From Pseudomonadota bacterium (lineage in GTDB: Bacteria; Pseudomonadota; Gammaproteobacteria; Burkholderiales; Burkholderiaceae_C): DNA of 47,855 bases. A program made the position numbers and the translations under genes. Of the stretch, positions 12,480 through 15,186 are shown in pieces (the first letter of the stretch is position 1; each line of letters begins with the position of its first letter). Where the stretch lies: positions 1 through 47,855 of the forward strand of contig JAJZUZ010000007.1 in the NCBI GenBank assembly GCA_021845965.1, written 5' to 3'. Under the pieces are notes generated by a model. That model made no database searches. It saw only the letters and a list, made by a program, of their open reading frames with translations, and was not told the DNA's origin.

Positions 12480-13136
12480 TCAGGTCTTCTTCGGATGCCG
12501 CAGCGACTCGTAGGCCGGCCGGGTCAGGCATCGGTGCAGCCAGGCGCTGCTCAGCGGAAACTCGGCCATGAGCTCCCGCGCGGCGCGCACCCAGAGCAGG
12601 ACGCTGGCCACACAGAGATCGGCCAGCGTGAAGCGATCGGCGGCGAGATTTGACTCGCCGCGCGCCTGCTGCTGCGCCAGATGCTGCTCCAGCACGCGCA
12701 ATGGCACCTTCAGGCGCTGCGCGGCCGCATCGGCCAGCTCGGGCTTGCGTTGTTCGGCGGGCATGACCAGACGATGCATGAGCACGGTCAACGCGTCCTT
12801 CTCCACCTCGGTGACCGTCCAGAAGCTCCAGCGCAGGGCTTCGGCGTCCTCGCGCGGTGTCGCCGGCACGAGGTTCGCGCCATCAGGCCTGCCATGGTGC
12901 CGCGCGATGTAGAGCGCACAGGCCATGCTCTCCCAGACGGTCACCGCCCCGTCCGCCCGGTGGTCCACCACCACCGGAATGTGGCCGTTGGGATTGAGCG
13001 CCAGGAATTCCGAGGTGCGCGTCGAGCCGGCCCGGTAGTCGGTCTGCACGTGCTCAAAATCCAGGCCGAGTTCGGTCGCAACCCACAAGGGCCGCAGCGC
13101 GCGGGAAGCCTGGATGCCATAGATGGTCAGGGCCAT
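12480..13136 (-). CDS. Glutathione S-transferase family protein
   Basis: The 218-residue protein has an N-terminal thioredoxin-like GST domain (MALTIYGIQASRALRPLW, with NPNGHIPVVVD containing the cis-Pro, then ESMACALYIA with the gamma-glutamyl-binding Glu-Ser) and an all-helical C-terminal domain with DRFTLADLCVAS. It would conjugate or reduce electrophilic substrates with glutathione in the cytoplasm; the exact class and substrate are unknown. AAGGAG lies 9 nt before the ATG. It converges on hemH with a 17-bp gap. Confidence 0.88.
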   Translation of the reverse strand: MALTIYGIQASRALRPLWVATELGLDFEHVQTDYRAGSTRTSEFLALNPNGHIPVVVDHRADGAVTVWESMACALYIARHHGRPDGANLVPATPREDAEALRWSFWTVTEVEKDALTVLMHRLVMPAEQRKPELADAAAQRLKVPLRVLEQHLAQQQARGESNLAADRFTLADLCVASVLLWVRAARELMAEFPLSSAWLHRCLTRPAYESLRHPKKT

Positions 13137-13226
13137 GGGAAAAGTTCTCCTTGTCGACCCCGCATTCTGCCAAGTGCCGGACCGCCGGGTGTCGCGGGTT
13201 TGCCAGTGCTAAAGTGCCGGACAGCT

Positions 13227-13634
13227 ATGGAATCCATGCGCATTGACAAGTGGCTGTGGGCCGCCCGCTTCTACAAGACACGTGCCCTGGCGGTCGAGGA
13301 AATCGGCAAGGGGCGCGTGCTGGTGAACGACCAGACGGTGAAACCGGCGCGCGAAGTGCGTGCGGGCGACCTGGTCACCCTGCGCCAGGGGGCTGTCATC
13401 CGCACCGTGCTGCTCAAGGGTCTTAGCAACCAGCGAGGCCCGGCGCCGGTCGCCCAGCAGCTGTATGAGGAAACCGAGGCCAGCCGGCTGGCCCGGGAGA
13501 CGAGCGCGGAGCAGCGGCGGCTCGCGGCAGAACCCGCTCTGAGCATCGAGCAGGGGCGGCCAACCAAGCGGGACCGGCGGCAACTCGACCAGGCGCGCTG
13601 GGGGGATCGGTGGAGTGCGTCGGCGGATTCGTAG
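13227..13634 (+). CDS. hslR: S4-domain RNA-binding protein, heat-shock protein 15 type
   Basis: The 135-residue protein begins with an S4 RNA-binding domain (MRIDKWLWAARFYKTRALA, with GRVLVNDQTVKPAREV and the DLVTLRQG turn). A basic tail ends with PTKRDRRQLDQARWGDRW, typical of the Hsp15 family. Hsp15 binds free 50S subunits carrying nascent chains and helps rescue stalled ribosomes. ATG 13227 is used; ATG 13236 is equally possible. A TAAAGT box at 13210-13215 may be the -10. The gene ends at a strong bidirectional terminator just before the tRNA-Ser island. Confidence 0.88.
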   Translation: MESMRIDKWLWAARFYKTRALAVEEIGKGRVLVNDQTVKPAREVRAGDLVTLRQGAVIRTVLLKGLSNQRGPAPVAQQLYEETEASRLARETSAEQRRLAAEPALSIEQGRPTKRDRRQLDQARWGDRWSASADS

Positions 13635-13764
13635 CTCGCCCGAGTGCTCCTGCAACGATCGAGGCACGGAGGGACTGCTCGAGATTCGTCTGGCGCGAAT
13701 TTCTCGGGGCTGCCCGCGTCCAGAAACAGAGGGTTCTCGTCATCCTCCGGCTGCGCCAAAAACA

Positions 13765-13793
13765 AAGCCCCGCCATAGGCGGGGCTTGTTTTT
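13765..13793 (+). terminator. Strong bidirectional terminator after hslR
   Basis: AAGCCCCGCC (13765-13774) and GGCGGGGCTT (13778-13787) form a perfect 10-bp stem with a 3-nt loop, followed by GTTTTT. The symmetry extends outward (CGCCAAAAAC at 13754 with GTTTTTGGCG ending 13797, one bulged A), so T runs flank it on both strands. It serves hslR and was probably also the original terminator of tRNA-Ser before the island inserted. Confidence 0.85.
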
Positions 13794-13815
13794 GGCGGAG
13801 ACGGAGGAGATCGAA
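13793..13815 (-). repeat. Left att-like copy of the tRNA-Ser 3' end
   Basis: The copy begins TGGCGGAGACGGAGG, identical for 15 bases to the CCA end and acceptor/T-stem of tRNA-Ser, then has three mismatches and five more matches (TCGAA). It lies exactly 1300 bp from the tRNA copy and directly abuts the terminator on its left. It is best read as the displaced original tRNA end. Confidence 0.7.
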
Positions 13816-13857
13816 TAGCTAGTATCCATGCGGGTTTCCAAGGGTTCGAGAGCAAAA

Positions 13858-13877
13858 TGCCTACAAATTTGCCTACA
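13858..13877 (+). repeat. Arm-type 20-bp repeat, left copy
   Basis: TGCCTACAAATTTGCCTACA, itself two TGCCTACA units separated by AATT, is repeated identically at 14938-14957. It lies 43 bp inside the left att copy. Paired direct octamers near an att core are typical of tyrosine-integrase arm sites. Confidence 0.75.
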
Positions 13878-13914
13878 CACATTTTCACTTTATGAAAATA
13901 TTTTGAGAGAAGCA

Positions 13915-14814
13915 ATGGCAATGATCTCTAAAGTCAGCGAGTCCAACACATTCGTGCCGGAGTACATGCCTGTCCTTGTCAGGATCAATAGAACACCCGG
14001 GCTTCCCGATAAGGAGCGAGTTCAATGGATTGGCACGGTCTTCGTCGTCGGCATCCAAATGCTGTTCACAGCAAAGCATGTAGCACAGCAGCTACTCAAG
14101 GATGACCCAGCCTTAGCACAAGGGAAACCATCTCAATATCAATACGCCATCATTCAGGTACGCAAGACTTCAAACGAGCTATTCATCTGGAACATTCATA
14201 CGATCGGGATGATTGATAACTGCGACATCGCAGTTATTACATTAAGTCCGGCTCATAGCTCCGCCCAGAACTACTTGCATTGGTCGGGACTACCTTTGAC
14301 TCTCATCCCACCAAGAGTTGGGGACAGAGTAGCCGCTAGCGGCATCCATCAGATACATGTGAAGCAAGTGCAGTTGAACGGCGAGTCGATCCATATTGAT
14401 ATAGATGTCGAACGCTCGTTTTCCGAAGGTGTGGTCAAGGATGTGCACTTTGAGCAGCGCGACCGCGGACTTTACTCATGGCCCTGCTTTCAAGTAGACG
14501 CTCAATTCGACCCTGGTATGAGCGGTGGGTACATTGTCAACGAGCGAAACGAAGTCTGCGGCGTGGTGTGCGGTAGCCTTGGTGCAACCTCCCCCGATGA
14601 AGAACACATTTCATACGGGTCACTACTCTGGCCAACAGTAAGCCTGCCAATTCCCCCTCAATGGATTCCGAATGCCCCGCCCGAGCAAGAGTGCCTACTG
14701 TGGGACTACTACCACCGAGTAGAGCCCCGGCCCATAGGCATAGATAGGGTGAACCTCAGAAATGAACTTGCGACCGGAGGATCACTCATCAGTTCCTACA
14801 CGGATCCATCGTAG
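13915..14814 (+). CDS. Trypsin-fold serine protease, island cargo
   Basis: The 299-residue protein has no signal peptide or membrane segment, so it is probably cytoplasmic. A chymotrypsin-like triad is visible and well spaced: His55 in LFTAKHVAQ, Asp104 in DNCDIAVITL and Ser203 in the oxyanion motif DPGMSGGYIV. The region after GGYIVNERNEVCGVVCG completes the second barrel; the last 60 residues match nothing I recognise. ATG 13915 is chosen because GAGAG precedes it and the triad spacing begins there; ATG 13921 is possible, and the frame runs back to 13828 through the arm repeat. Base composition and codon use differ sharply from the flanking genes, showing transfer. It is the only gene of the tRNA-Ser island. 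Similar orphan proteases occur in phage-defence and regulatory islands, but its role here is unknown. Confidence 0.75.
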   Translation: MAMISKVSESNTFVPEYMPVLVRINRTPGLPDKERVQWIGTVFVVGIQMLFTAKHVAQQLLKDDPALAQGKPSQYQYAIIQVRKTSNELFIWNIHTIGMIDNCDIAVITLSPAHSSAQNYLHWSGLPLTLIPPRVGDRVAASGIHQIHVKQVQLNGESIHIDIDVERSFSEGVVKDVHFEQRDRGLYSWPCFQVDAQFDPGMSGGYIVNERNEVCGVVCGSLGATSPDEEHISYGSLLWPTVSLPIPPQWIPNAPPEQECLLWDYYHRVEPRPIGIDRVNLRNELATGGSLISSYTDPS

Positions 14815-14817
14815 GCA
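14811..14817 (-). repeat. Inverted TGCCTAC unit at the protease stop codon
   Basis: GTAGGCA is the reverse complement of the island repeat unit and overlaps the TAG stop of the protease gene. It may be a further arm site or chance. Confidence 0.35.
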
Positions 14818-14836
14818 GCTTTCTAGTGAATCTCTG

Positions 14837-14861
14837 TTCGAATCCTTGACCAGGATTCGAA
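14837..14861. repeat. Perfect 10-bp inverted repeat resembling a T-arm
   Basis: TTCGAATCCT (14837-14846) and AGGATTCGAA (14852-14861) flank the 5-nt loop TGACC. Each arm contains GATTCGAA, the motif of the tRNA-Ser T-arm. It lies 22 bp after the protease stop. With no T run it is not a standard terminator; it could be a recombinase core-like site. Confidence 0.5.
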
Positions 14862-14872
14862 TCATCAACATC

Positions 14873-14912
14873 AAAACCCGAAGAGATAAGACCAGTTCTG
14901 AATCGGTTTTTT
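14873..14912 (+). terminator. Candidate terminator after the protease gene
   Basis: AAAACCCGA pairs with TCGGTTTT with one bulged base across a 21-nt loop, and the second arm merges into six T. This is the nearest plausible terminator for the protease transcript. Confidence 0.4.
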
Positions 14913-14917
14913 CACTC

Positions 14918-14926
14918 TTGTAGGCA
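14918..14926 (-). repeat. Inverted arm-type unit
   Basis: TTGTAGGCA is the reverse complement of TGCCTACAA and sits 11 bp before the right 20-bp repeat, adding an opposite-facing site to the right arm. Confidence 0.55.
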
Positions 14927-14937
14927 TCCATCTTTTT

Positions 14938-14957
14938 TGCCTACAAATTTGCCTACA
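14938..14957 (+). repeat. Arm-type 20-bp repeat, right copy
   Basis: Identical to 13858-13877 over 20 bases, with different flanks. It lies 135 bp inside the tRNA-Ser copy of the att repeat. Confidence 0.75.
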
Positions 14958-15049
14958 GCACACTCTGCTCCCTACGCAAAACTTCAAAAATTAGGCATTT
15001 TTGGAGGTACAAAAACGAGCGTGAAATCTGCATGTAAGTGGTTGATTCG

Positions 15050-15088
15050 AAAAAGAAAAAGCCCGCAATCGCTGCCGACTGCGGGCTT
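15050..15088 (-). terminator. Terminator of tRNA-Ser, supplied by the island
   Basis: On the minus strand AAGCCCGCA and TGCGGGCTT (15080-15088 with 15059-15067) form a 9-bp stem with a 12-nt loop, followed by TTTCTTTTTC. It begins 4 nt past the CCA of tRNA-Ser. As the left end has another terminator next to the displaced tRNA end, the element seems to bring its own. Confidence 0.8.
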
Positions 15089-15092
15089 CATC

Positions 15093-15115
15093 TGGCGGAG
15101 ACGGAGGGATTCGAA
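15093..15115 (-). repeat. Right att-like copy (3' end of tRNA-Ser)
   Basis: These bases are the functional CCA, acceptor 3' strand and part of the T-stem of tRNA-Ser, and match 13793-13815 in 20 of 23 positions. Integration into tRNA 3' ends usually preserves the tRNA in this way. Confidence 0.7.
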
Positions 15116-15186
15116 CCCTCGATGCACGTTTTAGCGCGCATACTCCCTTAGCAGGGGAGCACCTTCGGCCTCTCGGTCACGTCTCC
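15093..15186 (-). tRNA. tRNA-Ser, anticodon GCU
   Basis: The minus strand folds as a class II tRNA with acceptor GGAGACG/CGTCTCC, anticodon loop CTGCTAA (anticodon GCT at 15150-15152) on stem CTCCC/GGGAG, a long variable arm and T arm GAGGG-TTCGAAT-CCCTC. The CCA is encoded (15093-15095). It follows lysC in the same direction and is the integration target of the adjacent mini-island. Confidence 0.95.

Follow-up and report, generated by a model that had tools for sequence, protein, structure and literature searches.

We analysed a 47,855-nucleotide stretch of DNA from a Pseudomonadota bacterium of the Burkholderiaceae_C (GenBank assembly GCA_021845965.1, contig JAJZUZ010000007.1; hereafter the window), in which a 1.3-kb island with one protease gene adjoins the 3′ end of an intact, minus-strand tRNA-Ser(GCT) gene (Table 1). 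The island is framed by a 23-nt direct repeat (13793-13815 and 15093-15115, spaced 1300 bp apart) whose copies agree at 20 of 23 positions and are exact over the leading 15. This core 15-mer occurs only twice in the window, and the next-best match to the 23-mer within 12601-15080 agrees at 14 of 23 positions. Island GC content is 48.7%, versus 66.0% for the window; the 12 lowest-GC windows of 1277 bp, among those listed, all overlap the island, and GC at third codon positions is 57% in the protease gene, the sole clear gene of the island, versus 91% in lysC. No integrase is recognisable in the island (best E-value 0.05 when ten integrases of the clade described below were compared with it by translated match), and the four Phage_integrase matches in the genome, which is 83% complete, all lie off the island's contig. 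The original prediction had noted the 15 identical bases (20 of 23 overall) of the tRNA-Ser 3′ end recurring 1300 bp away, and an AT-rich interior with one gene and no integrase; our repeat search, tRNA call, base composition and integrase comparison confirm both.

A query spanning the tRNA and lysC matched in 59 of 60 genomes searched, and 30 loci were retained, one of them from the genome itself. Relatives carry the empty tRNA-Ser site that the original prediction proposed to look for: 15 of 29 loci from relatives have the chromosomal terminator immediately next to the 3′ end of the tRNA, and the window flanks, joined over the island, align with one such relative (G014) through the core. The genes and signals on this side (hsp15, terminator, tRNA) are contiguous within ~0.25 kb in G014, G018, G006, G016 and G010. 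Among the remaining loci, one (G001) has no tRNA end in the locus and 13 fall outside the terminator pattern used; three of these 13 (G023, G015 and G019) have less than 300 bp on that side, and a fourth (G032) has, by eye, another terminator-like stem. None of the 29 loci, each covering at most 1.5 kb on that side, matches the island, and no plasmid or phage record matches it at the DNA level. Because the terminator abuts the tRNA in 15 of 29 loci and no relative's locus matches the island, the 1.3-kb stretch is a true insertion into the tRNA-Ser site.

Inside the island lies a second direct repeat, stronger than the core repeat: an exact 20-mer, TGCCTACAAATTTGCCTACA, whose two copies form the P and P′ arms of Table 1, in addition to an inverted TGTAGGCA at 14919. 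Sites of this type (TGCCTACA/TGTAGGCA), just inside both island ends, are of the kind to which the arm-binding domain of a tyrosine integrase would attach, and we refer to them as arm sites of the attachment (att) system. The island holds five arm octamers, all perfect, beside an intact core; shuffled sequences hold 0.04 on average, none of 2000 dinucleotide shuffles reaches five, and the rest of the window has one. A 19-mer of the arm repeat has no other occurrence in the genome, even allowing two mismatches. The strict 20-mer (one mismatch), searched in 399 order genomes, returned the genome itself and one stretch that is coding by eye; a spaced form of the arm, searched in 399 family genomes, returned the genome itself and one stretch read as non-att. 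The AT-rich form of the arm is a minority variant, and an analysis of arm heptamers was used in its place. The parts of the matching literature consulted hold no description of the arm motif or of either literal 20-mer.

The geometry of core and arms led to a clade of phage integrases. A core-N-arm scan of viral contigs gave seven hits, five of which, from three phages (L101/L110, L141/L144 and L143), read as att sites with spans of 72-73 nt (72 in the window); L140, which lies within a glycine-rich open reading frame (ORF), and L142, which by eye gives the same glycine-rich reading, were dropped. Contigs L143 and L144 hold what amounts to an attP region, made up of an integrase gene (incomplete in L144), arms, core and a further set of arms; Arm-DNA-bind_3 and Phage_integrase domains were identified in the L143 integrase. 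It is 55.8% identical to the integrase of VarioGold (OP296522), a mitomycin-induced phage with a 15-bp att in tRNA-Ser(CGA) (PMC9658991). For the relatives of the L143 integrase, 80 of 89 loci were kept and 44 of the 80 examined, seven of them without upstream DNA. Twenty-three are 55-100% identical to the L143 integrase, five at a contig edge without upstream DNA; arm heptamers occur in all 18 others, an arm covers the integrase start codon in 17 of these 18 (NTGCCTAC, N-terminus MPT or similar), and 13 of them have an arm at -237 to -265. The 18 contigs are not independent cases, because L148 is L143 itself and L157 and L169 look like one phage in two samples. In three of the loci (L149, L159 and L167) the start-codon arm is the only one. 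At 31-39% identity (21 integrases, two without upstream DNA), 18 of 19 lack an arm heptamer and one (L202) has one. The start codon and the region near -28 also carry arm heptamers in four of the seven clade integrases in family genomes (L229, L230, L233 and L235). The arm motif is typical of this VarioGold integrase clade, not universal in it. As a side observation from L148-L169, L199 and L228, most clade members have an arm-type site across the start codon of the integrase; integrase bound there could shut off its own gene.

When position 14927 is taken as the A of an integrase ATG on the minus strand, arms of the window fall at +1, -17 and -29 and its core at -179, with the P arms at distances of 58 and 70 nt from that core. 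P-arm distances are 58 and 70 in L157/L169 and 59 and 71 in L148, and the integrase-side arms of L161/L162, at -18 and -28, are close to those of the window. VarioGold has arms at -260, -248, -40, -28 and +1 and an annotated 15-bp attP 191 nt upstream. It shares with the island the tRNA-Ser 3′ target, the 15-nt core and the P arms at 58 and 70 nt; an arm over the integrase start codon and an integrase-side arm near -28 are likewise common to both. The two cores differ at 2 of 15 nt, and VarioGold is a 39-kb phage with integrase and phage genes, whereas the island has 1.3 kb, no integrase and one protease gene. Similarity extends to the DNA between the sites. The 50-nt P spacer resembles those of L161, L162 and L148 (0 of 1000 shuffles reach the score in each case), L166 (1) and VarioGold (3), and the integrase-side half resembles that of L199 through the terminator (0 of 1000 shuffles), with a weaker likeness to L148 and L158 (8 of 1000 each). 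The island has a core in the tRNA-Ser 3′ end and arm sites at clade positions on both sides of it, with an integrase-side spacing 11 nt shorter. It has no clade integrase gene, only ATGCCTACA of its start being left, and none is present in the genome (G000) at E 1e-100. Phage structural, replication and lysis genes are also absent from the island, whose single gene is of the Trypsin_2 family, and it is therefore a remnant and not a prophage.

Table 1. Positions, in window coordinates, of the island's attachment sites, gene and borders.
Feature	Position	Strand	Remarks
Chromosomal terminator	13765-13787		abuts tRNA-Ser 3′ end directly in empty relatives; displaced here by the insertion
attL core	13793-13807	minus	15 nt identical to tRNA-Ser 3′ end; minus-strand reading CCTCCGTCTCCGCCA
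P-arm spacer	13808-13857	minus	DNA-similar to attP spacers of L161, L162, L148, L166 and VarioGold (AACCCGCATGGATaCTAG)
P arm	13858-13877	minus	two 8-nt arm-type sites, 13858-13865 and 13870-13877; 58 and 70 nt from core
Cargo gene	13915-14814	plus	299-aa stand-alone Trypsin_2 peptidase
Arm site over ATG of putative lost integrase gene	14919-14927	minus	ATGCCTACA = M-P-T; no integrase frame beyond
P′ arm	14938-14957	minus	two arm-type sites, at -17 and -29 relative to integrase ATG
Element-internal terminator beside tRNA	15058-15089	minus	replaces the chromosomal one; resembles that of L199
tRNA-Ser(GCT)	15093-15186	minus	intact; 3′ 15 nt (15093-15107) are the attR core

Repeats of the same kind surround larger, integrase-bearing elements at tRNA-Ser, as the original prediction had suggested looking for. 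A clade integrase was found at E 1e-100 in 7 of 399 genomes of the window's family, and tRNA-Ser adjoins it at six of the seven loci, two of them tRNA-Ser(GCT). One of these genomes (G500) carries a clade integrase and 37.7 kb between attL and tRNA-Ser(GCT), with the attL laid out as in the window (terminator, core, arms 65 nt from core start); this element, whose genes were listed over 3.8 kb of it, is likely an intact prophage. In its variable arm, the tRNA-Ser(GCT) of the window equals that of G500 (L238:19409 onward) and differs from those of the same-genus loci listed. Among the viral contigs, tRNA-Ser(GCT), arms and a clade integrase occur together at the contig end L153, and L110, with the same sample number, is an attL end bearing genes for terminase, portal, capsid, scaffold and endolysin; we infer that they are two ends of one prophage. 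At the same threshold, the clade integrase is absent from the window's own genome and from the five same-genus genomes listed. A further relative (G035) has the same tRNA-Ser(GCT) site occupied by a 10.9-kb integrase element (L063, G035:C3, reverse strand), which looks like a capsid-forming satellite: besides the integrase, inspection by eye suggested portal, capsid and terminase genes, and tail genes were not noticed. It was set aside as a counterpart of the island: its arms, TGTGGGACA, are of a different specificity and its integrase is another one.

The 299-aa product of the island's gene matches Trypsin_2 above the gathering score and stands alone. Its motifs TAKH, DIA and GMSGG align with two homologues (~37% and ~29% identical) at the places expected of a His-Asp-Ser triad, and we take them to hold the catalytic His, Asp and Ser. 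PADLOC models match it in the protease part of RT-Protease (E 2e-8) and weakly in PDC-M35A; a single-sequence structure prediction had a mean predicted local distance difference test score of 37.7. The protease is rare. At E 0.001, 14 of 399 order genomes have a match, its own included, the best others being 39% (G192) and 31% (G285) identical; genome contigs, viral contigs and phages have no relative and plasmids one 28% hit. The nearest homologue (L138:1104-4368, G192:C150) is bounded by the 3′ end of a tRNA-Ser(GGA) on one side and the start of its contig on the other; GGTGGGA repeats were seen near that tRNA, and no att repeat was found at the locus. Trypsin-like proteases act in antiphage systems, where they are fused to defence proteins and accompanied by a partner nuclease gene (PMC12799240). 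The island's protease resembles these in being trypsin-like and in its PADLOC matches, and differs from these fused, nuclease-paired proteases in standing alone with no second gene. A role as a superinfection or defence gene is our guess.

Taken together, 13793-15107 is very probably the stub of a deleted temperate prophage of the VarioGold clade, judged from its sequence, with the att apparatus and one trypsin-like gene kept. A phage of this clade would have integrated into the tRNA-Ser(GCT) 3′ end by means of its tyrosine integrase. We infer that a deletion or replacement then took out the DNA between the third codon of the integrase and a point shortly downstream of the cargo gene beside the P arm, perhaps 36-40 kb if the phage matched the G500 element or VarioGold in size. 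All arm sites and the integrase start codon are retained and the integrase ORF is gone, leaving a stub that should be immobile by itself. The 104-bp segment between the protease stop and the lost ATG (14815-14918) is possibly the deletion junction. That segment also contains an inverted repeat (~14837-14863) with a tRNA T-loop-like GGATTCGAAT. The place of the protease gene has a parallel: a position next to the P arm is a usual one for accessory 'moron' genes of prophages, and the P-arm end of VarioGold, annotated with transmembrane-segment proteins and an O-antigen-ligase family protein, is a normal place for accessory genes. Because both att halves retain core and arms, a VarioGold-type phage residing in the same cell might mobilise the stub in trans, its integrase and excisionase cutting it out and inserting it again. 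The original prediction, which invoked a tyrosine integrase and read the island as a non-autonomous element (satellite-like, or like a cis-mobilizable element, CIME) or as a collapsed one, is supported; the arm sites and the phage origin, which it did not include, favour a collapsed prophage over a satellite.

Several observations weigh against this reading. Arms are lacking within 320 nt of three of the seven family-genome clade integrases (L231, L232 and L234, all of one genus, N-terminus MATN). The core of the island lies 179 nt from the integrase ATG, versus 190-192 nt in members with a scanned core. Eight of 13 attP spacers have no similarity to the island's (at least 192 of 1000 shuffles reach the score), as has the G500 spacer, and on the integrase side L199, L148 and L158 alone stand out among 14. 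A search of the island for a coding remnant of the integrase was negative. The protease has no PHROG family, and no copy of it was seen in the clade loci, which cover a few kb each. That the lost DNA was a phage, and not another element with the same integrase, is judged from the viral-contig company of the clade and from VarioGold. Finally, the genome is fragmented and 83% complete, and an integrase elsewhere in it could be missed.

The arm motif also occurs in other settings. An arm 21-mer gave four matches in genome contigs (SAR86, Cupriavidus, Burkholderiales and Oscillospiraceae). The exact 21-mer arm pair was seen in Cupriavidus pauculus (L046:1040-1082), in an Oscillospiraceae contig (L044:1073-1093) and in a Burkholderiales contig (L043:2010-2030), and no tRNA gene was found near the 21-mer in the Cupriavidus stretches or in the Oscillospiraceae and Burkholderiales contigs. 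The SAR86 genome (L081:1734-3111, G806:C3) has in its tRNA-Ser(GGA) a 1.34-kb element that lacks an intact integrase. This element has an exact 39-bp core repeat and, at both ends, exact 24-bp arm repeats that contain the window's 20-mer; it encodes one 162-aa ORF without a match in NCBIfam or PHROGs, and a decayed integrase tail which, by eye, is unlike the VarioGold clade. A fragment in it reads by eye as a tRNA-Phe 3′ end. In a 9.7-kb element in tRNA-Arg(CCT) (L102:56-9829; 43-bp core, Xer-like integrase), TGCCTACA arms stand at both ends, as a pair at one and a single octamer at the other, so that the same arm motif accompanies an apparently different integrase type.

The island might also be a maintained one-gene element of the same phage-att origin, regularly excised and spread in trans with its att sites under selection, a reading that does not exclude the prophage stub and that we regard as possible, if on balance doubtful. 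Five perfect arm octamers and an intact core speak for it, given that some clade loci show the start-codon arm only, as do the analogous SAR86 element and the microcin H47 (MccH47) island of Escherichia coli, which illustrates that integrase-less islands can excise using functions from elsewhere in the chromosome (PMC3191183). However, a recent deletion would be just as likely to leave perfect arms, the decayed integrase tail kept by the SAR86 element speaks for decay, the island is single-copy in its genome with no second copy in the 29 relatives' loci, plasmids or phages, and neither its own genome nor the five same-genus genomes listed have a clade integrase at E 1e-100. It is rather unlikely that the island belongs to an unrecognised class of ~1.3-kb one-gene elements with a full core-plus-arm att and no integrase, spread in trans by phage integrases. 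Such a class would be the phage counterpart of miniature inverted-repeat transposable elements or orphan integron cassettes, and the SAR86 element with its identical 20-mer would be a second, independent member.

The other readings have less in their favour. Retention of attL and attR with loss of mobility genes is the published definition of a CIME, an element derived from integrative and conjugative elements (ICEs) or integrative and mobilizable elements (IMEs) (PMC5704250), and the island answers to it in keeping attL and attR and lacking integration and transfer genes, former transfer genes being presumed by that definition only. Yet the clade with which it shares its att layout turned up in viral contigs and in a mitomycin-induced phage isolate, ICEs not being among the sequences searched, and its one gene is not a conjugation gene, and we consider a CIME or collapsed ICE/IME improbable. 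An assembly artefact is a slim prospect: the genome is in 281 contigs at 83% completeness and two 20-nt repeats could mislead an assembler using very short k-mers, but the sequences on either side have orthologues in relatives, where they adjoin at the empty site, and the gene in between was not found in the clade loci. A chance repeat or a remnant second tRNA gene, with 1.3 kb inherited vertically, can practically be dismissed, no support for it having been found. The original prediction had named vertical descent without any empty site, and a remnant tRNA, as findings that would overturn it; empty sites exist, no relative's locus matches the island, the Rfam tRNA model matches at 15096-15186 and not at the left repeat, and the arm geometry argues against chance.

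Integrase-less, att-bearing islands are already known, and this one is unusually small, well preserved and assigned to the clade of a named phage. The MccH47 island is likewise small, flanked by attL and attR and without recombination genes, but it spans 13 kb with long imperfect repeats, and its excision and integration via functions encoded elsewhere were shown experimentally, whereas the present island is known from sequence alone (PMC3191183). Like such trans-mobilizable islands, it combines intact-looking att sites with a lack of recombination genes; where CIMEs descend from ICEs or IMEs (PMC5704250), it has the att system of a phage clade. The additive flexible islands at tRNA-Lys of Methylophilaceae, with inserts of 330 bp to 42 kb and 1-63 coding sequences, resemble it in their variable inserts preceded by tRNA 3′-end repeats; in the portion of the report consulted, they differ in that no arm sites or integrase origin are described (PMC10872708). 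Phage satellites such as phage-inducible chromosomal islands and P4-like elements have their own integrase and helper-exploitation genes, neither of which the island carries.

Core and arm geometry can place an orphan islet beside a tRNA in a phage integrase clade even when the integrase is gone. In this clade the integrase commonly has an arm site across its own start codon, so that the att site outlives the gene. The same geometry offers a means of detecting integrase-less islands that go unnoticed when searches rely on integrases, and of asking about their movement in trans. Should such stubs be mobilised, phages could carry single genes without any satellite machinery.

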